From a virus, in IMG/VR virus record IMGVR_UViG_3300020473_001771, positions 1 to 38,781 of that record: a stretch of DNA of 38,781 nucleotides; one strand, given 5' to 3'. Made by a program: the position numbers and the translations under genes. This document shows, piece after piece, positions 1,158-16,402 of the stretch. Each line of letters starts with the position of its first letter. Position 1 is the first letter of the stretch. The notes beneath the pieces were generated by a model. That model was not told the DNA's origin. It made no database searches and worked only from the letters and a program-made list of their open reading frames with translations.

Positions 1158-2178
1158 AAGTATGCTATGGAAAGTCGCACAGACTGGATATACCATGGAG
1201 AAAGATTTAAAAGCAAGTGGCTTTTGTAGTGTGCCTTATGAATATTTGATTGTTGATATAAATGGCGAGTGCTTTGCATGTATGTGTCAAGATTGGTTAC
1301 CTATCAGTATCGGCAATGTGTTTGAAAGTGATCTAGAAGATATATGGAATGGTGCTATAGCCGATGAACTTAGGGAATCTGTAACTGATGGCACAATGAA
1401 ATACTGTAACAATTTCAATTGCAGTAAAATAATACAGGCAGAATATGATATCGAAGTTCCAATAAAATATCCACGACCTAGATTTATAAATTTTTGTTAT
1501 GACATGAGTTGTAATTTGCATTGTCCTAGTTGCAGAACAGATAAACTTTTTATATCTGAAGGCCCACAATATGAAAAAATGTTACAGATAAATGACAAAA
1601 TCAGCAAATTTATTCAAGGTAGCAATGTCACACTTAACATTACCGGCAGTGGAGATCCTTTCGGTAGTAAAATTTTCAGAGAATTTTTGTATGCTTTTGA
1701 CGGAGAAGCAAGTCCTAATGTGAGATTTCATTTACAAACAAATGGCCAAATGATAAAAAAATGTTGGAAACACATGCATAAAATACATAACAATATCGAT
1801 GTGATAAGAATTAGTATGGATGCAGGTACAGAAGAAACATATAAAATTGTTAGAGCACCCGGAGATTGGAATAGGCTTATTGCTAATATGGCATATTTGA
1901 ATTCTGTAAGATATAATTATAATTTTCAAATATGGTCAGATTTTGTTGTGCAAAAAATAAATTACAAAGAAATTCCGAAATACATTCGACTAGCAGAAAA
2001 TTTAGGAGTTGATCGCATAAATTTACAAAAAATTACAGACTGGGGTACTTGGGGCACACAAGCAAACTTTAATGACGTTGCAGTATGGAAAGAGACACAT
2101 AGCGAATACCCTGCATATTCTGAAATAATAAAAAATATTCGCAGTGAACGTGTTGAAATAGGCAACATAGAAGCATGA
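1138..2178 (+). CDS. Radical SAM enzyme with N-terminal SPASM-like cysteine region
   Basis: The radical SAM signature is C125-x3-C129-x2-C132 (SCNLHCPSC), which binds the catalytic 4Fe-4S cluster that cleaves SAM. It is followed by a glycine-rich NITGSGDPFG segment and a RISMDAGTEETY strand typical of the core barrel. Before the core lies a cysteine-rich region (C30, C45, C48, C50, C90, C95) with a DINGECFACMCQDW..ISIGNV....LEDIWNG pattern. This matches SPASM/Twitch auxiliary-cluster domains, which normally follow the core. The product is 346 residues. Alternative starts are ATGs at 1162 and 1195; 1138 overlaps the upstream gene by 20 bases, and the stop overlaps the next ATG at 2175 (ATGA coupling). 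SPASM enzymes usually modify peptides or sugars; the substrate is unknown. Confidence 0.8.
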   Translation: MTLKPHKSMLWKVAQTGYTMEKDLKASGFCSVPYEYLIVDINGECFACMCQDWLPISIGNVFESDLEDIWNGAIADELRESVTDGTMKYCNNFNCSKIIQAEYDIEVPIKYPRPRFINFCYDMSCNLHCPSCRTDKLFISEGPQYEKMLQINDKISKFIQGSNVTLNITGSGDPFGSKIFREFLYAFDGEASPNVRFHLQTNGQMIKKCWKHMHKIHNNIDVIRISMDAGTEETYKIVRAPGDWNRLIANMAYLNSVRYNYNFQIWSDFVVQKINYKEIPKYIRLAENLGVDRINLQKITDWGTWGTQANFNDVAVWKETHSEYPAYSEIIKNIRSERVEIGNIEA

Positions 2179-3026
2179 CAGTAGCATTGTATAGAACAGG
2201 TAGACCATTCACAGAAAAATTTATGGAAAACTTTGCATTAGGTTTCACGGCAGGTGAAGCAAAGTTTTACACATATGAAGAATACAAACAGCACGGACTC
2301 CCTACTGCTGACCTGCATTGCTTCTTTGGTATACTGCGTGGCATGAGTGAAATATTTTTAGAGTGTGAACAAAAAGGTATTGATCACATGTATATAGATC
2401 ATGCATATCTAAAGGGTGGATACAATCCACCATTTTGGTTTAGAATTGTTAAAAATGGGCATTGTCACAATAAATTAATTCAGAGGCCTGATGATCGTTT
2501 CAAAAAATACTTCGGAGATGTCAAATTGAAACCATGGCGAACAACTGACGGTCACATACTAGTTTGTCCTCCTACAAATGCAATGTTAGAATGGTTTAAG
2601 ATTCCCAATTGGTACGAAGAAACAATAAATGAAATAAGAAAATATACAAACCGACCAATCAAGGTAAGAGAAAAACCCTTCAATCCGAAAATTGATAATT
2701 TACTAGGGTTTGGTTTGCCAACAAAAGGTGGCGGAACTGCCAAAAAGGTACGCAACGATGCATCATTGCAAGAAGATTTGAATAATGCACATTCAGTGGT
2801 TACTTTTAATTCACAAGTTGCCACAGACGCTGTAGTTCAAGGCATACCTACGTTTATATTCGGTGGAGTAAATGGTGCCTTGCCAGTTGCTCATACAGAT
2901 TTTTCACTAATAGAAAAGCCAATTCATTTTGATAACAGACAGGAATGGTTGAATCATCTTGCCTATTGCCAATTCACTGATGAAGAATTTAGATCCGGCC
3001 TTGCTTTCAGAATATCAAATCAATGA
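2175..3026 (+). CDS. GT-B-like glycosyltransferase/capsule-synthesis-like protein, paralog 2
   Basis: This 283-residue protein is homologous along its length to the product at 339-1157, including HILVCP, the RPIKVREKP segment, a DLNNAHSVVTFNS motif with the expected serine, and AVVQGIPTF. It differs by a glycine-rich insert after the RPIKVREKP block. The Ser plus G.P arrangement is as in capsule/teichoic-acid-type GT-B folds, where it contacts the nucleotide-sugar phosphate. The start overlaps the radical SAM stop by four bases, so the two should be translated together. The 3' end overlaps the convergent oxygenase gene by 12 bases. Having one copy on each side of a radical SAM enzyme suggests that the two act on one pathway. 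Function is inferred from fold-like motifs only. Confidence 0.55.
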   Translation: MTVALYRTGRPFTEKFMENFALGFTAGEAKFYTYEEYKQHGLPTADLHCFFGILRGMSEIFLECEQKGIDHMYIDHAYLKGGYNPPFWFRIVKNGHCHNKLIQRPDDRFKKYFGDVKLKPWRTTDGHILVCPPTNAMLEWFKIPNWYEETINEIRKYTNRPIKVREKPFNPKIDNLLGFGLPTKGGGTAKKVRNDASLQEDLNNAHSVVTFNSQVATDAVVQGIPTFIFGGVNGALPVAHTDFSLIEKPIHFDNRQEWLNHLAYCQFTDEEFRSGLAFRISNQ

Positions 3027-3785
3027 TTGATTGTACATTTTTTTGCCAATTTTGGCATTGAACTCTGCTATAATGTTGACTGAACGACGTTCAACAGTTG
3101 GCATGGGTGTGCGTGGTGTTACACTATGTACCGAACCAGGCAAGTTAAGAAAACAACAAAAAGTATTTGCCTTATAAGTAATTGTTTCTGTAATTGTGTC
3201 CAAAATATTTGTAGGCACAGAACGTCCATCCTTTTTTACAACTGAAAAGTCATTTGTTGTCACTTTGTGTACATTAAAATCGCCGCCAGTGGTATTGTCA
3301 TCTGCTCGCTTCATGTAGAATAATCCTGCATATATTTCAATTGGATTGTCCACGTGTGGAGTTCGAGTTGACCCAGCAATTGGTTGATGAATGACTGCTT
3401 GACAGTCTGTCACAAGACTAGTTGGGCCTCTGCCTTTTGTTCTAACTGACGTGGCGCCTCGCAAATCTTTCTGTAAATTTTCAGGAATGTGTGGCCAAAA
3501 TATATCAACCATACGGTTATAAAATTCATTGCTGGTATGATACTCATAAAAATCTTTCCATACCCCTTGTAATAAATTATCTTGTATTGCTAATGAAGCA
3601 TTCAATCTGTAGCAGGTGTCATTGTCAACACCTTTTGCATGTTCTAATATTATGTCTTTCGGGTACTCTGCATCTAATCTATCATATATGTCTTGTGGCA
3701 ATGCATTTTCAATACAAATATATTTGTATGGTTCTGTCCTTAGACATGAGGCAGTAAAATTTTGTAGTACACTAATGTTTTCCAT
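3015..3785 (-). CDS. 2OG-Fe(II) oxygenase (prolyl-4-hydroxylase-like)
   Basis: The 256-residue product has the facial triad of 2-oxoglutarate/Fe(II) dioxygenases: H144-x-D146 in TPHVDNP and H220 in GSVHSV. An arginine follows at 233/234 (ERRSVNI) that would bind 2-oxoglutarate. The strand GLFYMKRADD and the TGGDF turn lie between, as in the double-stranded beta helix. I chose the ATG at 3785 because it overlaps the preceding gene (stop 3772-3774) by only 14 bases; a longer open frame to 3959 would run through most of that gene. Such phage enzymes hydroxylate protein, nucleotide or small-molecule substrates, and this one cannot be assigned. It sits in an operon with a glycosyltransferase, so hydroxylation followed by glycosylation is conceivable. 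Confidence 0.8.
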   Translation of the reverse strand: MENISVLQNFTASCLRTEPYKYICIENALPQDIYDRLDAEYPKDIILEHAKGVDNDTCYRLNASLAIQDNLLQGVWKDFYEYHTSNEFYNRMVDIFWPHIPENLQKDLRGATSVRTKGRGPTSLVTDCQAVIHQPIAGSTRTPHVDNPIEIYAGLFYMKRADDNTTGGDFNVHKVTTNDFSVVKKDGRSVPTNILDTITETITYKANTFCCFLNLPGSVHSVTPRTPMPTVERRSVNIIAEFNAKIGKKMYNQSLI

Positions 3786-4464
3786 TTGTAAATCCGTTGT
3801 ATTCTTTATGGTATTGATTCCAAACATCTGCGTATTCACAGTCTCTGTAATCGTCAAACCAAGGACCGCCTTCTGTGTAATGTATCGCTTTTGGTTTGCC
3901 ATCCTCAGGCTCTTCATACCAACCAGCCAGCCAGTTCCATTCACATGACAATTCACCAATCAAGTCGTCATCTAGCCATTGCATTCTATGGAGAAACAAA
4001 GCAGACTGATGATTCAATAAATCAGGGGTTAGTATTTTATTTTTTTCATGGCCAGCATTGAATAACATACATGATGACCAATTCTTTCTTGGATATTGTA
4101 ATTGCACCTGACCGTCCATCTTGCGTGTATTTTTTGGTGTGTAATCATGTTTGACACACATGATTGCATATTTGTCATCTGCTTTCTTAAACAGTTCTTC
4201 TATGTCTGTTGTGAAAATAAAATCGGAATCACAAAACAAAACCCAGTCTTCGAAGCCTGCCAACATTGGAGTGAAAAATCTTGTAAAAGTGAACTCTGTT
4301 GATGCTTTTTTGTCTATGGGACGCCAATACAAACCAAGTTCACGCATTAGATCTTGCTTCAATGGATTGACCATTGCAGTAGGTGAATGTTTCTGAATAC
4401 TATACTTGCATACTTCATATGCAATTGGTTCCCTGCTGTCCCAGCCTACAAAAATTTTTCGCAT
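3772..4464 (-). CDS. GT-A-fold glycosyltransferase (GT8-like)
   Basis: This 230-residue protein begins MRKIFVGWDSREP.AYEVC, the first strand of nucleotide-sugar transferases. It carries a DxD motif (D79-S-D81) in WVLFCDSDFIF, preceded by FTRFF, as in GT8-like enzymes where the acidic pair holds the metal and nucleotide diphosphate. A C-terminal HYTEGGPWF resembles the conserved His-Gly region that closes the active site. It is the first gene of a two-gene minus-strand unit with the 2OG oxygenase and is divergent from the PP-loop gene across a 46-base gap. Transfer of a sugar to a surface glycan, protein or base is possible; the acceptor is not visible. Confidence 0.75.
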   Translation of the reverse strand: MRKIFVGWDSREPIAYEVCKYSIQKHSPTAMVNPLKQDLMRELGLYWRPIDKKASTEFTFTRFFTPMLAGFEDWVLFCDSDFIFTTDIEELFKKADDKYAIMCVKHDYTPKNTRKMDGQVQLQYPRKNWSSCMLFNAGHEKNKILTPDLLNHQSALFLHRMQWLDDDLIGELSCEWNWLAGWYEEPEDGKPKAIHYTEGGPWFDDYRDCEYADVWNQYHKEYNGFTNGKH

Positions 4465-4510: not shown

Positions 4511-5608
4511 ATGACGCACACTTGGACAGTTGGTAATAAAACATATGACAACAAACTACAAGCCATATATGAAAGTAGCAGTAAAAATTTACCAATCTAC
4601 TATCAAGGACTTTCATGGTGGGATTCTCATAATTGGACTGAAAAACCTGCTGAAAGTTTTGAGAAATTATGTTTAGATAGAGCAGTCCAAATAAGCAAAA
4701 CACATGACAAGGTAATATTGTATTACAGTGGTGGTTGTGACAGTCACACAATATTAAAAACTTTTGTTGATTATAACTTACCTTTGCATGAAATAATAAT
4801 ATGCAAGTCTGGTATACTGTCTTCAGACTTTGAAATAGACAGTCTTGCCATACCTTATCTGCAACAGAATAATTTATTACACAAGACTAGAGTGATTACC
4901 CATACAGTGAATGATTATAAAAATTTTTATAGCCAAACATATTGGCACGAAAAGTTACAAGGCAGTCAACAATTACAATTTAGGTTGCAACAATACTGGT
5001 CACTGCATGAAGAGTACACAGACACAAATGAAGCAAATGCTAAAATATTTGGAGGAGAAAAACCAAGAGTGTGTCATGTGAATGATAAATGGTACACATA
5101 TCAACTAGACATAGAACATGATGCTAGAACTTTACTGCCAGGACAGATCGACTTTTATACAGGGGATCCTGCACTTGCAACCAAACAGACTCATATGGTA
5201 AAAGACTATATCAAAAATCACGTACCATCAATTGATTGGAATAAATTTACCGACCAATCAAACAAAAAGTATTATAAAGATTACTGTTTAGCATCTGGTA
5301 GAACATATGATAAAACAAAAAGTTTTCTTACAAAAAATCAATATGATCACAATATAGAAGGCTTTGAAGTGCATAACTTTAAAGAACAATCATCTCTGAA
5401 AGAATTTATTAGTAGTATGCCTAACATTGTTGAAAATTATAAAAAAGGCATCATTGATTTGCAACAAGCCTATGCAAAATATTTTAACAAAGGAAAGCCA
5501 CAACTAGGCACTATTGGCAGTCTAAGTAAATTTTATGGATTAGATCAGGCCGAAATTACAACGGTTGATCATCTGTTTCCTCAGGGATTTCACCTGGATC
5601 ACTCATAG
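4511..5608 (+). CDS. PP-loop ATP pyrophosphatase family protein (adenine nucleotide alpha-hydrolase fold)
   Basis: The 365-residue product has the PP-loop SGGCDS (73-78) after a hydrophobic strand VILYY. This is the SGGxDS signature of enzymes that adenylate a carboxyl or carbonyl group, such as asparagine synthase C-domains, QueC, TilS and PAPS reductase-type proteins. A following IIICKSG strand and FEIDSLAIPYL fit the alpha-hydrolase fold. The long C-terminal half (roughly 170-365) matches no subfamily I recognise, so the substrate is open: amidation, thiolation and 7-deazaguanine-type chemistry are all possible. It faces a glycosyltransferase/oxygenase pair divergently. Its 3' end overlaps the small minus-strand gene by 53 bases. 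Confidence 0.7.
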   Translation: MTHTWTVGNKTYDNKLQAIYESSSKNLPIYYQGLSWWDSHNWTEKPAESFEKLCLDRAVQISKTHDKVILYYSGGCDSHTILKTFVDYNLPLHEIIICKSGILSSDFEIDSLAIPYLQQNNLLHKTRVITHTVNDYKNFYSQTYWHEKLQGSQQLQFRLQQYWSLHEEYTDTNEANAKIFGGEKPRVCHVNDKWYTYQLDIEHDARTLLPGQIDFYTGDPALATKQTHMVKDYIKNHVPSIDWNKFTDQSNKKYYKDYCLASGRTYDKTKSFLTKNQYDHNIEGFEVHNFKEQSSLKEFISSMPNIVENYKKGIIDLQQAYAKYFNKGKPQLGTIGSLSKFYGLDQAEITTVDHLFPQGFHLDHS

Positions 5609-5912
5609 GCATACCACCATTATCAAACCATCTGCCGTCAGCAGTTTTATATAAAGTTTGTCTAAAAGTATGTCCTGTGTGTGTTTTCTGTCTGCGACTA
5701 GTCTCTGTGATTTTCCCTTGATATTCTGTCCCATCTGCATTTATCAGATAATGTTTCATGCTGTCACCAAATCCAGAAGAATAAATTCTGTCTATCCACT
5801 GGTTTGCATAATAGTTACTGACAATTCTGCCGTGAACATTAGGTTTGTTGAATTGGGAGTCGTCTATTGCCGTAGTTTTTGTAGGTTTTTTCCTGGTGGT
5901 TTTCCGAGCCAT
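5556..5912 (-). CDS. Small basic protein of unknown function
   Basis: I do not recognise this 118-residue protein. Its first 15 residues are Lys/Thr/Arg-rich (MARKTTRKKPTKTT), suggesting a disordered nucleic-acid-binding or surface tail. A compact middle follows with many aromatic residues (YYANQWIDRIY, RQTLYKTADGRWF) and an acidic end (EIPEETDD). The coherent composition and the ATG beside a 70-base intergenic region argue that it is real. However, it overlaps the end of the PP-loop gene by 53 bases, which is long for this genome. It is divergent from the symporter gene. Confidence 0.55.
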   Translation of the reverse strand: MARKTTRKKPTKTTAIDDSQFNKPNVHGRIVSNYYANQWIDRIYSSGFGDSMKHYLINADGTEYQGKITETSRRQKTHTGHTFRQTLYKTADGRWFDNGGMPMSDPGEIPEETDDQPL

Positions 5913-5919
5913 TTTGTTA

Positions 5920-5948
5920 TTGCACCTTTTTGTTTTTCATTATATAAT
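5920..5948 (+). promoter_or_regulatory. Sigma70-like promoter for the symporter gene
   Basis: A perfect -10 hexamer TATAAT (5943-5948) lies 17 bases after TTGCAC (5920-5925), which matches the -35 consensus only in TTG. An AAGGA ribosome site follows at about 5970-5974, before the ATG at 5983. Host RNA polymerase could therefore read the symporter early in infection. Confidence 0.5.
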
Positions 5949-5982
5949 ATAGTTAATTTTTGTCAAATGAAAGGACATTTAC

Positions 5983-7422
5983 ATGGACTTATTTCCACTT
6001 TTTGACCCCAGTGTGGGTATAGGCGTATTGGCAGTATATGGCATAGTTGCTTTTGCGTTTACATATTATTTTTCAAGAGGTTACAATGACAACAAAACAT
6101 CGTTCTTAGTAGCAAGACGAGAACTAGGAACATTTCAGGGGTCACTTAGTGTAGCGGCGGCTTGGTTATGGGCGCCAGGATTGTTTATATCTGCTCAACA
6201 GGCATACGTGAATGGTTTGGTAGGATTGTTTTGGTTTTGTTTGGGTAACTTCTTAACACTAGGCGCATTTGCCTATTTTGCCAAGAGAATCAGAAACAAT
6301 GAACCGGAAGGTTTTACATTCTCAGGATACTTGCGTGAAAGATTTTCAGGCCGAGTGCAATCATTGTTTGTAGTTGAAATGATGATACTTGCAACCTGTG
6401 CCTTTGCAATTAATTTACTTGCAGGTTCCAAAACAGTTGAAACACTGACTGGTGTTGACTACACTTTGGCCACATTTTTAATGGCTGGTGTTGCTATTTT
6501 GTACAGTTTCAGAACAGGACTGAAAGCAACAGTTGTAACTGAAATCATAAAGATCATTGTTGTATGGACCGGTGTTATTATATTAGTGCCATGGGTCATT
6601 GCCAATGCAGGTGGCTGGGACACAGTGGTGGCTGGACTCGGCGGACGTACTGGCGAAGGTGCGGCAATATTCGGCACATCATTTGCTTGGGGTATATTCA
6701 CAGGCTTTGGTGCGGCGGCGTTCTTAGGACACATGGGCGGTCCATGGGGCGACAATTCATTTTATCAAAGAGCCTTTTCAATCAAGACTGAATCAATTAT
6801 TCCATCATACGTGATTGCATCATTTGTATTCATTGTGATTCCAATTTGTATGGGATTACTTGGATTTATTGCGGCAGGATCAGGAATGGAGATTCCAAAC
6901 AACATGGTAGGCACAACCAATGCTATTGTGATAGGGACATATCTTCCTCCAATAGCGGCATTGGTGTTTGCGTTCATGGTGTTTGCAGGATTGGTTGCAA
7001 TACTTGATTCACAGTTTGCATCTATTGCCAACATGACAGGGCATGATATCTATAATAAGTTCAAAACAGGAAGTCCTATTAGTTCTGCAAGGTACGGAAT
7101 GGTTGCCCTTGCAATAGCAGGATTAATTGTTGCAAATATTCCAGGTATGCAGTTAGTGTACTTGTTTTTATTCTTTGCAATACTAAGAGCATCTGTTTGG
7201 TTGCCGTCAATGATTGCAGTACTAAAACCACAATGGATTACAGAACAAGGAATGTTTTGGGGAATCTTAATACCAGCAACAATAGGTGAGATACTTTATG
7301 TGTCTGGTAAATTAGGATACACTGATACTGCGTTCATGGGAACATTGATTGCAATCTTTGGGTCACCTGTGCTAACATTAATATTAAGCAATGGTGGACT
7401 CAGAAAAAAAGCAACAGCCTAA
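5983..7422 (+). CDS. Sodium:solute symporter family permease, Dur3 (urea/polyamine)-like
   Basis: This 479-residue integral membrane protein has about 13 hydrophobic segments, the size of a complete SSS (LeuT-fold) transporter. Similarity to eukaryotic and bacterial Dur3-type permeases is visible as an ordered set of motifs: AAAWLWAPGLFISA in early TM2, GLFWFCLGN, a TFSGYLRERF loop, LLAGSKTVETLTGVDY, ILYSFRTGLKATVVTEIIK, GPWGDNSFYQRAF, and an AGLVAILDSQFASIANMTGHDIY stretch matching the SSS TM8 region where Na+-ligating serines lie. The start is fixed by AAGGA nine bases upstream and by the promoter before it. The 3' end overlaps the next gene by 32 bases. Substrate is inferred only at family level; acetate, proline or nucleobase transport cannot be excluded. 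Both ends look intact. Confidence 0.85.
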   Translation: MDLFPLFDPSVGIGVLAVYGIVAFAFTYYFSRGYNDNKTSFLVARRELGTFQGSLSVAAAWLWAPGLFISAQQAYVNGLVGLFWFCLGNFLTLGAFAYFAKRIRNNEPEGFTFSGYLRERFSGRVQSLFVVEMMILATCAFAINLLAGSKTVETLTGVDYTLATFLMAGVAILYSFRTGLKATVVTEIIKIIVVWTGVIILVPWVIANAGGWDTVVAGLGGRTGEGAAIFGTSFAWGIFTGFGAAAFLGHMGGPWGDNSFYQRAFSIKTESIIPSYVIASFVFIVIPICMGLLGFIAAGSGMEIPNNMVGTTNAIVIGTYLPPIAALVFAFMVFAGLVAILDSQFASIANMTGHDIYNKFKTGSPISSARYGMVALAIAGLIVANIPGMQLVYLFLFFAILRASVWLPSMIAVLKPQWITEQGMFWGILIPATIGEILYVSGKLGYTDTAFMGTLIAIFGSPVLTLILSNGGLRKKATA

Positions 7423-8041
7423 ACTACTAATTATTACCGGGCCTCAAGGGTCCGGTAATCATCTATTTGCAAAAATATTTTCAATGCATCCTCGAGTAGA
7501 AGGTTGGCCCATGCTGATTGATGAATGGCAGGGTCATCATGAAGAGCCGTTTGCACATTATTGGGATAATCCAGAAAGTCTCAAAGACAAAGTATGGACT
7601 AAACCATTTGCTATGACAAGTATAAGTTGTCCATATTTTAGAAACAGAGAACCACAGATTCCTGACTACAGAAAATTTATTACCGAAGCAAAGAAACACA
7701 TGGATGTGGTTGTTGCCATAATTGGTAGAGACAAAAACATTTTAGAGCATCAACAGACAAGAGTAAGAGATGGACACACCACTCCTACCTTTATGGAAAA
7801 TTACAAGGTTCTTTTCAAACTTTGTGATGACATACATTTTGTTAGCCAAGAACTATTTTTTCTTTATGGAGCAGAATATCTTAAAGTTTTAGAGAAGGAA
7901 CTTAATTTTCCTGTGGCTTGGAATCATGAAACGAGAATTAAAGATCATTTGAAAAAATCTGAAAGTAACAAAAAGTATGTAACTGCATCTGACAAGGGAA
8001 AGTTTGATGAAGAAGTGAAGAAGGCCTGTGAAGAATCATGA
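7391..8041 (+). CDS. Sulfotransferase-like P-loop protein
   Basis: The 216-residue product opens with ITGPQGSGNHLFAKIFSMHP (15-34). This matches the 5'-phosphosulfate-binding loop of sulfotransferases (G-P-x-x-S-G-x-x-L...HP), with Asn-His where many have Thr-Thr. A VVVAIIGRDKNILEHQQ segment in the middle could serve as the 3'-phosphate site. If active, it would move sulfate from PAPS to a sugar or small molecule, but it could also be a kinase-like P-loop protein. It overlaps the symporter by 32 bases and the epimerase by four (ATGA), so the three genes form one transcriptional unit. The C-terminal 40 residues are Lys/Glu-rich. Confidence 0.5.
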   Translation: MVDSEKKQQPKLLIITGPQGSGNHLFAKIFSMHPRVEGWPMLIDEWQGHHEEPFAHYWDNPESLKDKVWTKPFAMTSISCPYFRNREPQIPDYRKFITEAKKHMDVVVAIIGRDKNILEHQQTRVRDGHTTPTFMENYKVLFKLCDDIHFVSQELFFLYGAEYLKVLEKELNFPVAWNHETRIKDHLKKSESNKKYVTASDKGKFDEEVKKACEES

Positions 8042-8871
8042 TGAACATATTAATTACAGGTGGAGAAGGCTTTATAGGCGGACATCTTGTTCGAAAACTT
8101 AAAGCATTAGAACATAGAGTCACTGTGGTCGACGATATGTCAGGCACACAAAGCAAAGATACCAAACACACACCCATATTTGCCATGCGAATACAAGATT
8201 ATTTGACCAGATGTGAAGAAAAATTTGACATAATTTTCCATTTGGCCGCTACTCCACGCATGGGTTTTAGTTTCGATCACCCAAGACAAGTGCTCGATAA
8301 CAACATTACTAGTACAATAGCAGTGGCAGATTATGCCTCAAAAGCAAACAGTTGGGTATTCTGGTCTAACTCAAGCATGACAACCGCCATAAATGACGCT
8401 AAAATCAACCCTTATGTGCATTCTAAAAGCATATCTAAAGACATTTTAGAACTTTATTCAAGGCATTTTGACCTAAATTATAGTATTTTATCCTTCCATA
8501 ATGTATATGGACCAGAAGAAAAAATAGAGGGAGAATACACCACATGCGTGGCGAAAATGCTTGATGATTACCAAAAGCATAACACAATAACAGTAACAGG
8601 TGATGGCACACAATCAAGACAGTTTACTCATGTTTATGATGTTGTTGATGCAATAATTTTGGCTATGAAAGACCAAAATCATGCTACAGATTATGTTATT
8701 AGTAGTCCAGAATTATATTCTGTAAATGATCTTGCAGATTGTTTTCCATGTGATAAAGTTTTTACTGATGCAAGGCGAGGTGAAGTACACACAATACAAC
8801 ATCCATCAAACATATTAGGTTTTCAACCTAAACATAATGTGTTAAATTTTATAAAAGAACAATTATCTTAG
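8038..8871 (+). CDS. NAD(P)-dependent SDR sugar epimerase/dehydratase
   Basis: This 277-residue extended short-chain dehydrogenase has the dinucleotide loop GGEGFIGG (8-15), an acidic pair VVDD after strand 2 that selects NAD, and a DIIFHLAA strand. The catalytic serine region is SNSS (110-113) and the catalytic pair Y126-x3-K130 is in NPYVHSK. NVYGPEE and QSRQFTHVYDV are hallmark motifs of UDP-glucose 4-epimerase-type enzymes, so its substrate is probably a nucleotide sugar. It is a little shorter than the usual 310-330 residues. The stop overlaps the convergent uvsY-like gene by nine bases. It would supply or alter sugars for the glycosyltransferases upstream. Confidence 0.85.
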   Translation: MMNILITGGEGFIGGHLVRKLKALEHRVTVVDDMSGTQSKDTKHTPIFAMRIQDYLTRCEEKFDIIFHLAATPRMGFSFDHPRQVLDNNITSTIAVADYASKANSWVFWSNSSMTTAINDAKINPYVHSKSISKDILELYSRHFDLNYSILSFHNVYGPEEKIEGEYTTCVAKMLDDYQKHNTITVTGDGTQSRQFTHVYDVVDAIILAMKDQNHATDYVISSPELYSVNDLADCFPCDKVFTDARRGEVHTIQHPSNILGFQPKHNVLNFIKEQLS

Positions 8872-9321
8872 ATCAGCATCTTCCATACCAGCAACTCTTA
8901 ATTTGGTTACATTAGTAATTTGCCATTGCTTTTGATCTAATCCTTTGAGGATGCCTAACCATCTGTTACGCATAAGTGCCCACTCATTTACAAGAGCCTC
9001 CATGTCACATACTTCATCTTCGCCTTCAGCGTATTTTTCAGCATCACGTGAACTTAATGCTCGAGCATAATTTTCTAAATATTTTTTGTAGTGTTTGGTC
9101 TTTACACGTCTAAGTTGTATATTAAGATGTTCTAATACTGCTTCAAGTTCTTGTAATTGATTCCATCTGTGTTCTACGATGCCCGGCATACTGGATGCAT
9201 GTTTTTCCAAATTGCCTTTTAGTCCACACTCACGTCTAGCAGATTCATATTCTGTTTCGAAGTGTGCTAAAGCATCTGGAATCCTAGATAAATTTTTTGT
9301 TATTTCTGCGTACCAAGTCAT
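8863..9321 (-). CDS. uvsY: UvsY-like recombination mediator
   Basis: The 152-residue product is helical and charged, the usual size of T4-type UvsY (about 140). It has a long central coiled-coil stretch with a KTKHYKKYLENYARAL segment, as in the central helix of UvsY. The end reads NRWLGILKGLDQKQWQITNV.KLRVAG, like the conserved UvsY C-terminus (L..I..R...I.N.I....F..G). UvsY loads UvsX onto gp32-coated ssDNA, and both partners are encoded immediately upstream on the same strand. The ATG overlaps the preceding stop by four bases. The sequence is divergent from T4, so the name rests on length, C-terminal pattern and neighbours. Confidence 0.6.
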   Translation of the reverse strand: MTWYAEITKNLSRIPDALAHFETEYESARRECGLKGNLEKHASSMPGIVEHRWNQLQELEAVLEHLNIQLRRVKTKHYKKYLENYARALSSRDAEKYAEGEDEVCDMEALVNEWALMRNRWLGILKGLDQKQWQITNVTKLRVAGMEDADLR

Positions 9322-9548
9322 TCAAAATCTACTTCTTCAAGATCATCTTCTTCTTCATCAAATTCAAAAATCTCAAGTATAGCAGTATCAAGATAGTCAT
9401 CATTACCCATACATTCCTTCAAATCTGATTCTGCCGCACCAAAGTCCATCACTAATTGCACAAAAGATGTTGCAACCACGCTTTTATCTTTGGTGGGAAG
9501 ATAATCTAAAAATAAATTCCAAATCTCAATTATTTGTTCACTGTCCAT
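9318..9548 (-). CDS. Small acidic protein between uvsX and uvsY
   Basis: I do not recognise this 76-residue protein. The middle is helical (IWNLFLDYLPTKDKSVVATSFVQLVMDFG) and the C-terminal third is almost all Asp/Glu (EFDEEEDDLEEVDF). The ATG at 9548 is preferred over an in-frame TTG two codons upstream. It overlaps the uvsX stop by 11 bases, and its own stop overlaps the uvsY-like ATG by four. Such tight coupling suggests that all three are made together. An acidic tail of this kind could mimic DNA or contact gp32/UvsX, but this is inference only. Confidence 0.7.
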   Translation of the reverse strand: MDSEQIIEIWNLFLDYLPTKDKSVVATSFVQLVMDFGAAESDLKECMGNDDYLDTAILEIFEFDEEEDDLEEVDFE

Positions 9549-10593
9549 CTTCAACTAAATCTTCTTCCGGAGCGTCAACAGTATCATGCATGTTCCATTC
9601 TTGCATAATCATATCAAGTTTTTCTCCAGTCCATGCTTTTCGATATTCTAATATTTCTTCTCCGTTTGCGTTTATATATTTCAATCTGTTACCTTGTTGA
9701 TTCAATATACCTTTCTTTTCGCATAGATCAACTAGTCCACTGTAAGGATCCATACCTGTTTCATATGGAATCTTAACTTGTACACCTTCGAAAGGTTTAG
9801 CATATCTTGTCTTCATTACTTTACATCCGGCTCTGATACCTCTAACATCGGATACTTTATTACCGGCTTCATCTTCTTTTAGTTTGAGTTTTTTCATTGC
9901 AACAACAATACTTGATGCATATATAAAACCTTGTCCGCCTGATATTTTATCATCTGGATCAAACATGTCTTGTGATGCATAAGTGTGATTAGTTGCCACT
10001 AATCCAACATTGTATGCACCTATCATGTTCACTGTGTTTCGAACAAGAGCAGTTAGTGCCTTAGGTTTTCTACCCATGTCACCTTTCATATCTCCCTTGT
10101 CAAACTGATCAACATCAGTTGGAGTCAATAACATGCCTAATGAATCAATTACAAATAACACTTTTGGTTTGTCATTGTCGTCTAATAACTTATAATCTCC
10201 CATGAAAGTTGAAATAGTTTTTGCTACATCATCAATCATACTCATTGAAAGTTTTAACAACTTGTCTTCACTTGTATCTACGCCTAGTGCCTGCAACCAT
10301 TTTTCATCTAGTGCGTTTTCACTATCTATTAGCACAACAAAAATACCCTGTTGTTGTGCATGTCTTACAATATTACCAGAGCAAATATATGATTTGCCTG
10401 AACCTGATTCTCCAGCAAACACAGTTACTTTGCCCAAAGGGACTCCTCTATTGAAGTCCCCTGAGATTAAGTAATTCAGTGCATAGTTGCCAGTGTTGAC
10501 CCAGTCAGTTGGGTCATTAAATCCAACGCCAAGACCATTTATACTTTTTGTTAGATCCTTGCGAAATTTTGATACGTCAAATGGCTTTACCAT
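9538..10593 (-). CDS. uvsX: UvsX, RecA-like strand-exchange protein
   Basis: The 351-residue product has Walker A GESGSGKS (61-68), a VVLIDSENA strand, Walker B VLFVIDSLG (145-153), and VATNHTY followed by SGGQGFIYASS, the region of the DNA-binding loops in RecA/UvsX. This order is diagnostic of the phage RecA family; T4 UvsX is about 390 residues. It catalyses strand exchange in recombination-dependent replication and repair. A strong ribosome site, TAGGAGG, lies eight bases before the ATG. It is followed by the acidic protein and the UvsY-like gene and preceded by gene 32, all on one strand, forming a complete presynaptic-filament module. Confidence 0.95.
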   Translation of the reverse strand: MVKPFDVSKFRKDLTKSINGLGVGFNDPTDWVNTGNYALNYLISGDFNRGVPLGKVTVFAGESGSGKSYICSGNIVRHAQQQGIFVVLIDSENALDEKWLQALGVDTSEDKLLKLSMSMIDDVAKTISTFMGDYKLLDDNDKPKVLFVIDSLGMLLTPTDVDQFDKGDMKGDMGRKPKALTALVRNTVNMIGAYNVGLVATNHTYASQDMFDPDDKISGGQGFIYASSIVVAMKKLKLKEDEAGNKVSDVRGIRAGCKVMKTRYAKPFEGVQVKIPYETGMDPYSGLVDLCEKKGILNQQGNRLKYINANGEEILEYRKAWTGEKLDMIMQEWNMHDTVDAPEEDLVEDGQ

Positions 10594-10607: not shown

Positions 10608-11609
10608 TTACTGTGCTTGTTTACGTTCTCTGATCAACTTGAGAATATCTTCGGCCTTCGAAGATGATTCAGTTGTCGGAGCAGTTTGTGTTTCTGCTTG
10701 TGCCGCCGGAGTTTCCTCAGGTTGGAACACAACTTCACCTTGTGGTTTTGGTTCTACCGGTGGAGTTACTGTTTCAGCAGTAGCCATCACTGTTTGTTTG
10801 TTTGGATCACCTGTTGCCTGACTCATGCCTGCAGGTTTGAAATAATTTCCAAATTTTTCAGTGTCATATGCTTCGCCATTTACACTTGCTTCAAACATTT
10901 CCTTCATAACTTTTAGTTCTACCTCGGAAGGTTTTTTCGGCAAAAAGTCATTCAAGTTGTATAAGCCATGTGTGTTTATTGCGTTGTTTTGTGCTTCAGT
11001 AAGTGCTGACTCTCTTCTACTCCATTTAGAAGTTGAATAGTCTGCGTACCCACCTTTAGAAGTTTTATTAATTCTAAAGTCTACACCTCTTACATAATCA
11101 GTTGGAAGATCTTCCATTTCAGGATCAAGTAATGCTCCTCTGATTATATTGAAAATTTGTGGACCAATAATAAAACGTCTGATTGGATTTTCCGGAGTAG
11201 TATTTTCATTTAGTGGATCCTCATTCACAAATCCTTGAAATATGTATGAACGTTTTTTCCAATATTTTCTACCCATGTCTTCAAGACTTTTATCTTTAAA
11301 CCACGGACGCACTTCTGCTAAGATTGGACATGGATCGCCCCACATCTCAACACAAGGAACTTGTACCATTGTGTTTGTACTACCTGCTTCACCTTTGATT
11401 CCAGCGAATGGTAATTTAATCATAGCACGTTCTACCCAAAAGAATGTGTTGTTTTCATCCTTGTCTGGTAAAAACCTTAGTACTGCTTCAGTACCTTCTG
11501 GCATATTCCAATGTGGGTAAATTGCGTTATCTCCAGTGTATTGTCCACCGGCCTGCGATTTGTTGTCTTGTTCTTTTAGTTTTGCTCTTATTTCTGCTAG
11601 TGTTGCCAT
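10608..11609 (-). CDS. 32: gp32-like single-stranded DNA-binding protein
   Basis: This 333-residue protein has the T4 gp32 layout. The N-terminal basic stretch MATLAEIRAKLKEQ would drive cooperativity, followed by the OB-fold region with AVLRFLPDKDENNTFFWVER. VPCVEMWGDPCPI (84-96) lies where T4 has its zinc ribbon, but only C86 and C94 remain here, so zinc binding is doubtful. The C-terminal third is Pro/Glu/Thr-rich and ends in a basic helix (DILKLIRERKQAQ) rather than the acidic tail that recruits partners in T4. A perfect AAAGGAGG ribosome site precedes the ATG. It coats ssDNA for the UvsX module just downstream. Confidence 0.9.
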   Translation of the reverse strand: MATLAEIRAKLKEQDNKSQAGGQYTGDNAIYPHWNMPEGTEAVLRFLPDKDENNTFFWVERAMIKLPFAGIKGEAGSTNTMVQVPCVEMWGDPCPILAEVRPWFKDKSLEDMGRKYWKKRSYIFQGFVNEDPLNENTTPENPIRRFIIGPQIFNIIRGALLDPEMEDLPTDYVRGVDFRINKTSKGGYADYSTSKWSRRESALTEAQNNAINTHGLYNLNDFLPKKPSEVELKVMKEMFEASVNGEAYDTEKFGNYFKPAGMSQATGDPNKQTVMATAETVTPPVEPKPQGEVVFQPEETPAAQAETQTAPTTESSSKAEDILKLIRERKQAQ

Positions 11610-11702
11610 ATTAGCCTCCTTTGTTGCCTATATAAGTTGCCTGTAAAAGCATATATCATAATAATATACACTTATTAATATTTAGTCAAGATTATTTTTA
11701 AA
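11610..11702 (-). promoter_or_regulatory. Upstream region of gene 32
   Basis: This 93-base gap is the AT-rich leader of gene 32. On the minus strand it holds a TAAATATTAATAAG stretch near 11675-11690 and a TTATATAGG box near 11625-11633 before the ribosome site. T4 gp32 represses its own mRNA by binding an unstructured leader. The A/T-rich, structure-poor leader is compatible with that but does not prove it. Confidence 0.35.
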
Positions 11703-13646
11703 TTAATTTATTAGACCCGCAAGTTTAAGAATTCTGTCTACTGGTACATCATTGTCTGGTAATTCATCACTGAGTCCATCAAGATCAATATGTATCTCTT
11801 TTTCCTGTGATTCTGCCATTTCAGTATCTTCGTCTGGATAGTTTGGTTCATCCTGGTCACTCTTTAAAATGATCATTGCATTTTTTATTCTGCCTTTTTC
11901 CAACTGTTGAATTGCTTGCTCAACTTTTTCTCTGAACTCTATTTCTGGTTGTGCATCGCGATCATTTACTGGATCTACACCTGGGTCATATGTGCCGTTA
12001 AGTATATCAGTTAATTCATCAGCAAGTCTAGTTGGATTTAGAAATTGTCTTGATCCATCTTTATCACTGGTTTCAATTGCACCCACAAAGTCATCAACTT
12101 CGTCTTTTAATCTTTTGAATGTGTTTGCATCTTCAGTTGGTATTTCTGTATTTTCTGCGTTAGGATTTTCATACTTTTCAACTTTGTCATCTGCCCAAGA
12201 TTCAAATTCTGACTGTGCTAATTTGTACTTGTCTTTTTTGTATCCTAGGTCTTTGTTTTTCACTGTTTTACCTTTTATATCTTTGTATCCTCCAGTTACT
12301 TCTGCTGGGTCTTTTCTAAGAGCATCTTTCTGTTTAGGATCACTTTGTATTTTTTTAATATCTGCTACATAGCGTCTTGCAAGATCCACAGCAATCTTTT
12401 TAGATTTAGCAAAGTCAGGGGACGGCCTGTTAAACAATTCGCCTTGTGATTCTATTTCTACTGCCATGTCAGAAGCAAAGTTAGCCACTCTTTCATCTTC
12501 TGGATTAGCAAACAAGGCCCTTGTTGCAATGTCTCTTAGTATGTTGGATAATAATATGTTTGGATCTTTGAATCTTGCTTTTTGTGTTAGTTTGTCCATT
12601 GCATCATTTATTTTAAGCACTAAAGGGTCACCTTTGTTTAGCCATTGGGCAACATATCCTGCATCTCTTGCCGATGCTGTTTCTGCCTTGTCTACATCAA
12701 AGTCATCATCATCTTGTTCATTAACTATCTTGTACACTAATGGTAATATATCACCAATGTTTTCATCAAATGTTTTCACTGTAAACTTATCTTTCCAATC
12801 AGCAAGTGTCTCTTCATTAACTTCCATTTCTTCTGCGTCTTTAAAGTTTTCAAACGCTTGTTCATATCCTCTTGCAGAGTTTAATCTTTCCATTGCTTTT
12901 TTCAGTTTCATTGATTTTTTGCGTGATTTTTCAACAATGGTGTTTGTATCATCATTCATTAAATCATGACGTGATACATATCTGTCAAATGTTCTAAGTT
13001 TTGCCAAACTTTCTGACATATCAATAATGTGTTGTCCAAAGTTATCATATGGATATCCACCATGAGCCACGTGTTGTTGCATTGCTCTAGCACCTGCTAA
13101 ATGCTTGAAAGGATACTTAAATCTTTCTCCTTCGCCATTCTCAATGAACAATGCTTTAATACTTCTTGATCTTGACCCTGGGACTTCTTCATCTACATTT
13201 TTAGAATGTCTAATAATTAACTTTGTTTTATCTAATGTTTGAAAAGAAGAACGTCTACTACCAAACATATTTGAACGTGCTTCTGTCATATTTTCCTTGG
13301 CCATAAATTCAAAATCTCTTTTGTCCAAATTCGACTTTTGTATATCTCTAGGGTCAAAAGTCATCATGTGTCTCTTGGCAAAGAATCTTAATTCTTTCAA
13401 AAACCCTTGCCATTGGTCCATGACATCTTCTGTCATGCCATCTGTTATATCTTTTGCATAAAAAACCTTCATGCTTTTGGGGTCTGCTATGCTTACAGAT
13501 ACTTCACCTGTATTTACTTCAAATGTAAAGAATTTTGCTTCAGTTGGTTCCAGGGTAGTTTTAGCCTCTGCATCAGCCATTTGCATACCCTCAAAACGTG
13601 ATCTGATCTTGTCAAATAGGTCCTGTGATATGGTTGATTGTTCCAT
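11703..13646 (-). CDS. Large acidic protein of unknown function
   Basis: I do not recognise this 647-residue protein. It is rich in Asp, Glu and Lys, with no membrane segment and few cysteines. The first 250 residues look globular (RFFAKRHMMTFDPRD, KYPFKHLAGARAMQQHVAHG). The middle is helical and charged, and a disordered Lys-rich linker lies near 440-500. The C-terminus is VDRILKLAGLIN after an acidic stretch. A short terminal helix of this kind recurs in proteins of marine T4-like phages as I recall, possibly as a docking peptide. It sits between gene 32 and virion/packaging genes and has an ATAAATAC motif immediately upstream, which suggests late expression and perhaps a virion or scaffold role. 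Confidence 0.75.
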   Translation of the reverse strand: MEQSTISQDLFDKIRSRFEGMQMADAEAKTTLEPTEAKFFTFEVNTGEVSVSIADPKSMKVFYAKDITDGMTEDVMDQWQGFLKELRFFAKRHMMTFDPRDIQKSNLDKRDFEFMAKENMTEARSNMFGSRRSSFQTLDKTKLIIRHSKNVDEEVPGSRSRSIKALFIENGEGERFKYPFKHLAGARAMQQHVAHGGYPYDNFGQHIIDMSESLAKLRTFDRYVSRHDLMNDDTNTIVEKSRKKSMKLKKAMERLNSARGYEQAFENFKDAEEMEVNEETLADWKDKFTVKTFDENIGDILPLVYKIVNEQDDDDFDVDKAETASARDAGYVAQWLNKGDPLVLKINDAMDKLTQKARFKDPNILLSNILRDIATRALFANPEDERVANFASDMAVEIESQGELFNRPSPDFAKSKKIAVDLARRYVADIKKIQSDPKQKDALRKDPAEVTGGYKDIKGKTVKNKDLGYKKDKYKLAQSEFESWADDKVEKYENPNAENTEIPTEDANTFKRLKDEVDDFVGAIETSDKDGSRQFLNPTRLADELTDILNGTYDPGVDPVNDRDAQPEIEFREKVEQAIQQLEKGRIKNAMIILKSDQDEPNYPDEDTEMAESQEKEIHIDLDGLSDELPDNDVPVDRILKLAGLIN

Positions 13647-13661: not shown

Positions 13662-14801
13662 TTAATTGTGTTCTAATAATTCAGCATACATAGGATCTAA
13701 CTGTGTTATATCTGTTTTTTTGTGTTTGTCCATCTGTATTGTCTTCATTTTGAAAATGTTGAACATTTTTTCATCATATTCAAATTGGTCTAATCCTTCA
13801 TACATATTATAAATTTCTTCATCCGACCCTAAAGTTTGCAGTTTGCTTTTGACATAATCTTTGTATTTTGTAGGCATAGAAGCAAATGTCATGCCAACTG
13901 GTTCCATACATTGTATTATTCCTATGTCACCAAATATGTGCTTCAATTCTGGATACCATTTATCCACAGTAAAAGCATTACTTGGTTGCCAAACCAAATT
14001 TGACCATATAACTTGATTTGGTTTAAGTTCAGCAAATAATGTATCAATGTTTTGTTTTACAACTGACCATTTTGCAGGATTCCTTATGTATTCATATGTG
14101 TCTCCTGTGCCATCAATACTGATTCCTATTCTTACTTGTTTAAAAGCATCCAACAAAGCATAAAAATCTTTTGGCAAGACAGTTGCATTTGTTGTTAGTT
14201 TTAAGACAATGTTTTCTGCAAATCCATTATCAATACAAAATTGTAGAAGTTCTATATGGTTTTTTTGTAGAGTCGGTTCGCCTCCTTGCATTTTAATCCT
14301 TACAGTATCTTTATCTATAAAGTCATCAATAGGTTCCCAAGATCCATTTTTTTCAAATGGATCATCAAAAGGTAGGTCAAATTTCTCCATTGAAAAAGTA
14401 TCAGGATATTTTTTGTACATTTTTTCTATCAGCACTGAGTTTCTTGGCTCACACATTGTACACCTTAAGTTACATAAGTTTCCAACACTATAATCAACCA
14501 TTATTGGTTTGCCTTTTTTGTTTCCTGTCTGAGCGTTAGGATTTTCTAATAGTAGATCGTCATACTGTGTGCGTGGCTTATCAAACTTAGTTTCTTGTGC
14601 AACACACTTATTGCAATGATCAGGAATCTTGCCGTCTAGTATTTCTTGTCTAAAATTTACTGCGTATTCACTTGTCCACCAGTCTTTGATTGTTTGATTT
14701 GGTTGCAATATAGTTTTGGTTTGTTCACAACAAAATCCTACTAAGTTGTTACTGGCAACATAGTGAACACCCGTAAATGGTGCTTTACATAATAAATCCA
14801 T
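13662..14801 (-). CDS. Radical SAM protein with N-terminal Twitch/SPASM-like domain
   Basis: The 379-residue product has the radical SAM motif C110-x3-C114-x2-C117 (CNLRCTMC), then KMQGGEPTL (the GGE motif that contacts the SAM amino group) and IGISIDGTGDTYEYIR. Upstream are extra cysteines C5, C24, C25 and C63/C66, an auxiliary-cluster-like region placed before the core as in the 1138-2178 protein. Proteins of this layout are often labelled Twitch-domain radical SAM proteins in marine phages. It lies between terminase gp17 and the 647-residue protein, nine bases after the terminase stop. The reaction is unknown; peptide or protein modification of a virion component is one possibility. Confidence 0.82.
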   Translation of the reverse strand: MDLLCKAPFTGVHYVASNNLVGFCCEQTKTILQPNQTIKDWWTSEYAVNFRQEILDGKIPDHCNKCVAQETKFDKPRTQYDDLLLENPNAQTGNKKGKPIMVDYSVGNLCNLRCTMCEPRNSVLIEKMYKKYPDTFSMEKFDLPFDDPFEKNGSWEPIDDFIDKDTVRIKMQGGEPTLQKNHIELLQFCIDNGFAENIVLKLTTNATVLPKDFYALLDAFKQVRIGISIDGTGDTYEYIRNPAKWSVVKQNIDTLFAELKPNQVIWSNLVWQPSNAFTVDKWYPELKHIFGDIGIIQCMEPVGMTFASMPTKYKDYVKSKLQTLGSDEEIYNMYEGLDQFEYDEKMFNIFKMKTIQMDKHKKTDITQLDPMYAELLEHN

Positions 14802-14809
14802 ACTAGTAT

Positions 14810-16402
14810 TTAATTCATTGAAATGAATATAGGCATTGGGTCAACTCTGTCTTCAACTTCATCACGTAATCTGTCATAGACTTTTGCGTCCCAGCCTGCT
14901 ATAACCTGCATCATTCTGACAACAAGTAAACAAGCAGATACTAGATCATCATGTTCTCCAGGCTTGGCTCCATAACTTGTGCCAGTAGCAACAAAATTTT
15001 TAAGTTCGCTTAACAAATTTTTACTGCTAATAATCATTTTGTCTTCTTCGATCAACTGTTTAAATTTTGCACAAGCAGATATTTTATGTTTGAATGTTGT
15101 GTTGAATCCTTTTCTAAACTTTCGCACATGACCTTTGCGTTGTGGTTCCGATAATAAAGTTCCTTGAATATTTTCTTCTCCTATATCTTGCACAGCCATA
15201 AGTGCGGCTTCGCCTAGTGTATTATTTTCAAGTGTGTAATAAATGGTTGGAGCATAGTCTCCTAGTTCAGTCAATCTGTCATATATGTGTTTCAGTATTT
15301 CACGCATGACTTTTACTTGCCCATTCACTGGTGTTGTGTTATGTTGCCATTCTGCTACCTGTATCATTTCAGGAAGTTGAAATATTTGTAGTGCCGCATA
15401 ATCTCCGCCAGTCCCTAAACAAGGATCAAGTGCTACAAGATATACTTTGTTCTTTTTGATGTCTTCATACCAACGTGTTTGTCCCATTCTTATTTTTGGA
15501 TCCTTTGCTTCAAGATCAACTAGTTTGACACTATTAATTAAAGTTTCATCATAAATTAAAAATTCACATTCATGCTCACGTCTGAATCTTTCTTCACCAA
15601 TCCGTGAACGCTCATCTTTTGCCCACTCCTCATCTCTGTCAGGATGTTCTGACCAGTGACACTTATATGCGGCAAATCCATTGCGTCCCAATCCGTCTTT
15701 GTTGGGATTGCCAAACTCGTCTTCTGTTTTGAGAGCCTCTTTCCAAATCAAAGCAAACTGATCTTCGTCCGAATTAGGAGTTGAAGTAATCAGACACTTA
15801 CCGCCTGTTGCTAGGGTTGGAGATAATGCAGTCCAAAATTCTTTGGCCTTTGTGGGTGGATTAACAAAAGCAAACTCATCACAATAAATTACAGATAGTG
15901 ACATACCCCTACCAGTGTTTTCAGTTGTGGTGGTTGCTTTAACACGTGATCCATTGTCAAATTCGATTGTGTTTCTGTTGTATGAATACACACCAGGTCT
16001 TATAAAGTCTGGCACAGATTCATATGCGTATCTGAATCTGTTCATTATGTCTTGAGCGCCTGCATATTTGTGGGCGGCAATTAGTATTTGTGAATCAGGA
16101 TTGAACATTGCATACCATAAAAGATAGGCAGATGCACAGGTAGTTTTTCCTGTTTGTCTTGGCAACATACTGATACTGAATCTATTTTCATTGTAATTTT
16201 TTAATAACTTTTTCTGATATGAATAAGGCTTAAATTTTATTGCACCTTTGGTTGGATGCTGTATTGATAAAAAGTTTTCAGCAAAGTATAAGGGGCCCTT
16301 TTTTGGATGAGCACATTTTTTTAGATGTTCTATTTCCTCATCTGTATATTTGTGTTTTTTGTGGGCCTTTTTTACTAGATTCCCTTGTAAACTTACACTC
16401 AT
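14810..16402 (-). CDS. 17: Terminase large subunit (gp17)
   Basis: This 530-residue protein is the DNA-packaging motor. The ATPase half has Walker A PRQTGKTT (81-88), Walker B plus catalytic glutamate VIYCDE (171-176) and the coupling motif LITSTPN (204-210). The nuclease half has YLVALDPCLGTGGDYAAL, where D326 is the first metal ligand of the RNase H-like fold, and a late GEHDDLVSACLL with the last acidic pair. Layout and motifs match T4 gp17 (610 residues), slightly shorter. It uses ATP to pump DNA into proheads and cuts concatemers. Unlike T4, the small subunit gene is not adjacent: three small genes intervene. Confidence 0.96.
   Translation of the reverse strand: MSVSLQGNLVKKAHKKHKYTDEEIEHLKKCAHPKKGPLYFAENFLSIQHPTKGAIKFKPYSYQKKLLKNYNENRFSISMLPRQTGKTTCASAYLLWYAMFNPDSQILIAAHKYAGAQDIMNRFRYAYESVPDFIRPGVYSYNRNTIEFDNGSRVKATTTTENTGRGMSLSVIYCDEFAFVNPPTKAKEFWTALSPTLATGGKCLITSTPNSDEDQFALIWKEALKTEDEFGNPNKDGLGRNGFAAYKCHWSEHPDRDEEWAKDERSRIGEERFRREHECEFLIYDETLINSVKLVDLEAKDPKIRMGQTRWYEDIKKNKVYLVALDPCLGTGGDYAALQIFQLPEMIQVAEWQHNTTPVNGQVKVMREILKHIYDRLTELGDYAPTIYYTLENNTLGEAALMAVQDIGEENIQGTLLSEPQRKGHVRKFRKGFNTTFKHKISACAKFKQLIEEDKMIISSKNLLSELKNFVATGTSYGAKPGEHDDLVSACLLVVRMMQVIAGWDAKVYDRLRDEVEDRVDPMPIFISMN

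Follow-up and report, generated by a model that had tools for sequence, protein, structure and literature searches.

What is a complete membrane transporter gene doing in the genome of a T4-like phage, and what would its product bring into the infected cell? The gene lies in IMG/VR virus record IMGVR_UViG_3300020473_001771, all 38,781 bases of which were analysed and are referred to here as the window; the record is likely a fragment of a genome. Phage transporter genes are usually read singly, as nutrient boosters, and a first-pass annotation had followed this reading, describing a Dur3-like transporter of the SSS (sodium:solute symporter) superfamily that would import urea or another nutrient to feed phage synthesis. 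The transporter gene, its downstream neighbours and the phage backbone genes are as follows:

5983-7422, plus strand: SSS-family transporter, 479 aa, approximately 13 TM helices (profile, PHROG, AF2 model and fold match)
7391-8041, plus strand: predicted sulfotransferase-fold P-loop-like protein (GPQGSGNH), 216 aa, its start overlapping the end of the SSS gene
8038-8871, plus strand: NAD-dependent nucleotide-sugar epimerase/dehydratase, third in the local run (PF01370, 6.5e-37; phrog_540)
9538-10593, minus strand: UvsX-like recombinase, phage backbone (phrog_97, 2.7e-69)
14810-16402, minus strand: terminase large subunit, phage backbone (8e-124)
21552-24947, minus strand: tail sheath, phage backbone (8e-216)

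The plus-strand ORF at 5983-7422 is open and uninterrupted from its ATG at 5983 and, together with a full-length Pfam SSF match and the AF2 model, it confirms the gene as complete. Its placement among phage genes was also borne out: the UvsX-like, terminase and tail sheath genes share the contig with genes for a gp32-like SSB, a tail tube protein and a dNMP kinase. In the uvsX/SSB region, DNA identity to large phages such as RaK2 and 121Q is 66-68%, and 3 of 11 other SSS contigs searched carry the T4-type capsid gene gp23, one of them being a 108-kb contig from a close relative. A chimeric assembly join at 5983-7422 was ruled out because the same gene is carried by 61 other, independent viral contigs in IMG/VR (up to 158 kb in length, with proteins 48-90% identical to that of the window). 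The gene therefore belongs to phage DNA, as expected for an auxiliary metabolic gene (AMG), and not to a host or chimeric segment. Among the SSS contigs, the nine longest (82-158 kb) have a single copy each. The gene is under purifying selection: dN/dS is approximately 0.05-0.1 between the window SSS and its nearest relatives where dS is unsaturated, while several wider comparisons are little informative because dS is saturated. Based on its spread in IMG/VR and low dN/dS, SSS is a maintained phage gene. At one locus (L049:5096-6461) it is split into two ORFs, by either a frameshift or a sequencing error.

The description of such a gene as unusual holds for described phages, as 50,697 phage records contain a single weak relative (34% identity, gut phage MT836198), but it does not extend to viral contigs in general: at least 62 in IMG/VR carry the gene, and phrog_20720, a PHROG family without a function, already covers it. 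Two pattern scans of 84,980 genomes found no close cellular relatives; as these scans require near-exact conserved stretches, they exclude close relatives only. The best plasmid match is 28% identical. The BFVD viral protein models gave no full-length SSS match, a result that does not establish absence, and a literature search returned nothing linking SSS to jumbo phages, pelagiphages or AMGs. Solute/sodium symporter genes are mentioned in estuarine viruses as an osmotic aid (PMC13288924), the transporter of PMC5705922 is a sodium bile acid symporter (a family other than SSS) and the transporters named in PMC12285232 also belong to other families.

Both profile and fold place the protein in the SSS superfamily (PF00474, TC 2.A.21). 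The Pfam SSF match (E-value 1.7e-20) spans positions 1-405 of 406 and scores 73.7 bits where the cut-off is 22.8, while NCBIfam TIGR00813 (sss) scores 112.7 bits, below its curated cut-off of 184. The AF2 model (approximately 13 TM helices, mean pLDDT 85) has the SSS/LeuT fold with helix breaks at residues 62-63 (TM1) and 252-257 (TM6), and its top 36 structural matches, at Z 36 and below, are SSS proteins without exception. Among solved proteins, plant DUR3 ranks first by profile (5e-32, the next being 4e-15) and by fold (Z 36.4), so that both the SSS class and the resemblance to Dur3 hold. In trees where the rows for DUR3, CHT, NIS and vSGLT are aligned parts instead of whole proteins, the viral SSS proteins fall on the DUR3-containing side, apart from PutP, PanF, ActP, SGLT, NIS and CHT. 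Support for this split is 100/99 in one tree and 97/99 in another; a smaller tree resolves it weakly. The viral proteins and that of gut phage MT836198 form one clade (100/99), and the branch that holds it also includes DUR3, tenA-linked haloarchaeal SSS proteins and several plasmid SSS proteins. DUR3 was not recovered as the sister of the viral clade, but a joint viral and DUR3 clade is not rejected (p-AU 0.157).

Substrate-site and ion-site residues were compared with those of UreA and CHT1 at four positions:

6163-6171, plus strand: codons for W61-L62-W63 at the TM1 break, a W-x-W pair equivalent to UreA W82/W84
6538-6552, plus strand: codons for T186-E187-I-I-K190 in TM5, in place of the usual SSS TDxxQ motif
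6730-6762, plus strand: codons for H250 to F260 at the TM6 break, a putative substrate site with H250, W255 and D257
6997-7011, plus strand: codons for A339-I340-L341-D342-S343 in TM8, Na2/Na3-like positions

The residues of the urea site of UreA are W82, W84, N279, T282, D286 and Y289 (PMC9783183). In mappings that rest on low-identity sequence alignment, with counts over 46 viral sequences, W82, W84 and D286 are kept as the invariant W61, W63 and D257 (the W-x-W pair in 46/46), while N279 is replaced by H250, T282 by G/A253 and Y289 by F260. The ion site is also altered. CHT1 uses the side chains of S346 and S347 at Na2, where S347A abolishes transport, and D188, D349 and S350 at Na3 (PMC11589582). 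The latter three correspond to E187, D342 and S343 of the phage protein: D342 and S343 are invariant, E187 replaces the Asp and the adjacent Gln is replaced by K190 (E187 and K190 both occur in 45/46). At Na2, position 340 is Ile/Val in 45/46 and position 339 is Ala/Ser, so the TM8 Ser/Thr pair by which a Na+-coupled SSS protein is recognized is absent. The loss of this pair, along with the change of TDxxQ to TExxK, makes Na+ coupling appear doubtful. DUR3, which is described as a urea-proton symporter, likewise deviates at the Na-site positions in the alignment, and proton coupling would be a reasonable supposition for the phage SSS.

Divergent phage SSS genes at L132:695-2035 and L133:2151-3491 encode proteins 42% identical to that of the window. 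L133 has the methyltransferase-SSS-sulfotransferase-fold gene order of the main viral clade, and it is the one exception among the 46 sequences, retaining D187, Q190 and the S-T pair with T340. As this protein is sister to all of the others in the tree, the residue switch is placed within the viral lineage; the ion-site changes and those from F to H250 and from F to W255 would most simply have originated on the stem branch leading to the main viral clade. A phage lineage that has lost the sodium site and gained a TM5 lysine, alongside an unchanged L133, provides a natural case for the study of a coupling-ion change in the LeuT fold.

Two gene families recur around SSS. The first is that of the downstream gene 7391-8041, whose product has no match in Pfam or PHROG. 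Its model (pLDDT 93) has sulfotransferases as its best PDB matches (Z 11.7, at low identity, with kinases at Z 9.1 and below) and places GPQGSGNH at the P-loop position; by this structure match it has the PAPS sulfotransferase fold and is, as modelled, a sulfotransferase-fold protein. The second is a methyltransferase family, class I SAM type by its motif DVGCGYN and with weak Pfam support. In profile searches of the 62 SSS-fetched loci, the methyltransferase family was found within approximately 8 kb of SSS in 59 and the sulfotransferase-fold family in 56; a 2OG-oxygenase-like family (weak Pfam support) is present in 29. No methyltransferase was found by profile search in the 38.8-kb window itself. 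Gene order differs from locus to locus, but in 74 of the 90 fetched loci that have both SSS and the sulfotransferase-fold gene the two share a strand and are no more than 100 nt apart (repeat-fetched contigs included). The sulfotransferase-fold gene was considered as an SSS-only partner and rejected: both are large families, with members also in loci that have neither of the transporters discussed here, and the sulfotransferase-fold genes are found with the TTT system (TctA/TctC) as well.

Two unrelated importer families, SSS and TTT, are exchanged at one phage operon position, with repeated swaps beside related methyltransferases. Each partner family has more than 500 loci, of which the best 80 were analysed (a non-random set in which some contigs were fetched repeatedly). 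Among these 80, loci without SSS often have in the same slot a gene for TctA (Pfam match 8e-85) and one for a TctC-like receptor (Pfam 0.09 in the one copy tested). No locus was found to contain both SSS and TTT. None of 36 SSS contigs has TctA, and in 34 partner-gene contigs TctA is present in 22, SSS in one and both in none. The resulting comparison (TctA in 0/37 SSS contigs and 22/33 others; Fisher p = 2e-10) is descriptive because the 34 partner-gene contigs were picked mainly for length. ORFs with at least five hydrophobic segments in the loci comprise 91 SSS, 55 TctA and 8 others, none of which is a recognized transporter. This mutual exclusion, observed on contigs that are genome fragments, could be due to different hosts. 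Two contigs carry TctC-type receptor genes in which TctA was not detected: L185 (G050), with four such genes, and L140 (G060), with one.

The exchange is evident in both trees and gene order. The methyltransferase tree requires at least 15 changes between SSS and TTT, at least 7 of which are forced by supported branches; compared to 24 changes in shuffles, 15 indicates that transporter type is still clustered. The tree of the sulfotransferase-fold family requires at least 4 changes, versus 17 in shuffles. L024 and L018 have the order radical SAM, methyltransferase, SSS, sulfotransferase-fold and oxygenase genes, while L204 and L187 have methyltransferase, TctA, TctC and a second sulfotransferase-like gene, with an oxygenase gene also present in L187. 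The methyltransferases across this syntenic swap are 71-75% identical, and those of a second swap (L031 and L197) are 84% identical.

The most economical reading of these results is an operon with a fixed import need and a free choice of importer. We tentatively favour, with doubt and belief about evenly balanced, the explanation that a dedicated phage operon has the SSS protein as its importer, serving the co-located enzymes and interchangeable with TTT. The protein would be placed in the host inner membrane during infection and would work as a LeuT-fold rocking-bundle transporter, presumably inward. Solute binding is predicted at the TM1 break (W61, W63) and the TM6 break (H250, W255, D257), with coupling probably involving either protons or the E187/K190/D342 cluster that remains, as opposed to a classical Na2 site. 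The imported small polar solute may then serve the methyltransferase, the sulfotransferase-fold protein and, often, the 2OG-oxygenase-like enzyme, and related phages would fill the same need with TctA and TctC in the same position. TTT systems generally carry carboxylates, which makes a small organic acid a reasonable first guess; the evidence points only loosely to such a solute or a similar one. The sharing of one operon position by two unrelated importer families suggests that the phage needs one kind of solute for particular enzymes and, since an unrelated transporter can take the same place, this seems to be a specific molecule and not simply urea as food. As a stand-alone account, the earlier "feed the phage" reading is weakened by the fixed methyltransferase, sulfotransferase-fold and oxygenase surroundings, as well as by the swapping of SSS and TTT. 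Whether the importers are interchangeable is a testable question. A broader proposal, possible but one against which we lean, is that T4-like aquatic phages carry a self-contained import-and-modify pathway, made up of an importer, the methyltransferase, the sulfotransferase-fold protein and the 2OG-oxygenase, in which SSS and TTT importers have been exchanged many times and the sodium site of the phage SSS has been replaced by a TM5 lysine. Such a pathway might yield a modified metabolite, glycan or nucleic acid that infection requires.

The alternative that best survives these data treats the slot as a hot spot for variable cargo, holding one general importer (SSS or TTT according to host) with neighbouring enzymes that are irrelevant to the solute. 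The partner families are indeed widespread without a transporter, gene order differs among loci and transporter type clusters by lineage. However, in the loci examined the slot holds two transporter families only, and the close pairing of SSS with the sulfotransferase-fold gene on one strand is strongly maintained; we regard this explanation as unlikely, if not markedly so.

A Dur3-type importer of urea (or polyamines), acting as an AMG to supply the infected cell with nitrogen, is a distinctly less probable explanation. DUR3 is the best solved match, it shares a broad tree branch with the viral proteins and the urea-site W-x-W and Asp (W61, W63 and D257) are common to both, and to this extent the first-pass annotation was correct. 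On the other hand, the viral SSS clade is separate, Asn279 and Thr282 of UreA are replaced by His (H250) and Gly/Ala (position 253), position 260 is Phe and the substitution of TTT beside modification-type enzymes fits poorly with urea uptake. The phage SSS is thus not established as a Dur3-type urea permease.

Phages often block rivals via membrane proteins, and the loss of the sodium-site residues would suit another membrane role, such as superinfection exclusion or a decoy, with transport being vestigial. We consider this very unlikely, as 46 sequences conserve the residues at the breaks that form the putative substrate site and an unrelated full transporter takes the place of the gene in other phages. 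Least credible is a vitamin-precursor (HMP/thiamin) transporter with a role akin to that of SAR11 ThiV, itself an SSS protein and a likely HMP transporter (PMC11452348): two of three trees group tenA-linked haloarchaeal SSS proteins with the viral ones in one broad branch, but they are not close to the viral clade, and no Rfam match to a TPP riboswitch was found in six viral loci (the window, L002, L024, L031, L042 and L057).

The dedicated-importer explanation can be compared with the closest known systems. Like the DUR3/UreA urea:H+ symporters, the phage SSS has the LeuT/SSS fold (Z 36.4), the TM1 W-x-W, the TM6-break Asp and altered canonical sodium-site residues. It differs in having H250/G253/F260 in place of N279/T282/Y289 and TM5 TExxK in place of the DUR3 residues, and in being shorter, in a separate clade and in a phage operon context. 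CHT1/SLC5A7 and bacterial sfCHT have the SSS fold (Z 33) and a W62 equivalent to W61, and CHT1 shares the Na3-like TM8 Asp and Ser and an acidic residue at the D188 position; in contrast, Na2 Ser347 of CHT1 is Ile/Val in the phage protein. A choline transporter was rejected on these grounds: although W62 and the Na3 Asp/Ser are matched, the aromatic cage W62, W141 and W254 of CHT reads W61, A140 and W255 in the profile alignment, the W141 position being Ala.

The nearest cellular sequences found are plasmid SSS proteins of Pararhizobium, Sulfitobacter, Paracoccus and Pseudoalteromonas (23-28% identity), which have W-x-W in common with the phage SSS but, unlike it, retain S-T at the Na2 position. 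Those of Sulfitobacter, Paracoccus and Pseudoalteromonas also keep TDxxQ, and their genes are followed by one for a putative transporter small subunit. The SSS of gut phage MT836198 shares 34% identity and branches as sister of the aquatic viral clade, but has intact TDxxQ and S-T sodium residues; its neighbours, judged by eye, are ParB-like and PAPS-reductase-like genes. In the gut phage contig (L053), SSS is followed by one gene resembling the PAPS-reductase family by eye, with another further downstream (9291-10073 and 10666-11820). Phage-encoded tctA has been described in SUP05 viruses, whose AMG set also included a 2OG-FeII oxygenase (PMC4164917). TctA and 2OG-oxygenase-type genes occur in viral contigs there as in the present ones; tctA belongs to a protein family unrelated to SSS, and the passage on it makes no link to SSS or to importer exchange.

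The signals flanking the SSS gene are as follows:

5556-5912, minus strand: divergent ORF, 118 aa, without a family match
5939-5966, minus strand: 12/12 sigma70-like promoter match (TTGACA-16-TATAAT), directed away from the SSS gene
5970-5975, plus strand: ribosome-binding-like AAAGGA
7433-7459, plus strand: 12-pair hairpin, 11 nt past the SSS stop codon

The ribosome site reported previously is present 7 nt ahead of the ATG. The gene had also been assigned its own sigma70-like promoter, but the 12/12 match is on the wrong strand to serve SSS and reads (5966-5939) toward the divergent ORF. A promoter scan found no plus-strand sigma70 match of at least 9/12 within approximately 700 nt upstream of 5983; a plus-strand TATAAT is located at approximately 5943-5948, without a -35 satisfying the scan. 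Near SSS relatives have TGGACA-16-TATAAT immediately ahead of the start codon. The hairpin is built from the GPQGSGNH P-loop codons of the downstream gene and could be either an attenuator or a codon accident. Equally strong hairpins (approximately -16 to -20 kcal/mol) occur in L006, L028, L032, L078, L015 and L031, though not in all relatives. The window is also rich in modification-type genes: ORFs at 339-1157, 2175-3026, 1138-2178, 3772-4464 and 13662-14801 include two paralogues that, judged by eye, look glycan-related, two radical SAM proteins, of which one has SPASM, and one weak glycosyltransferase-8-like protein.
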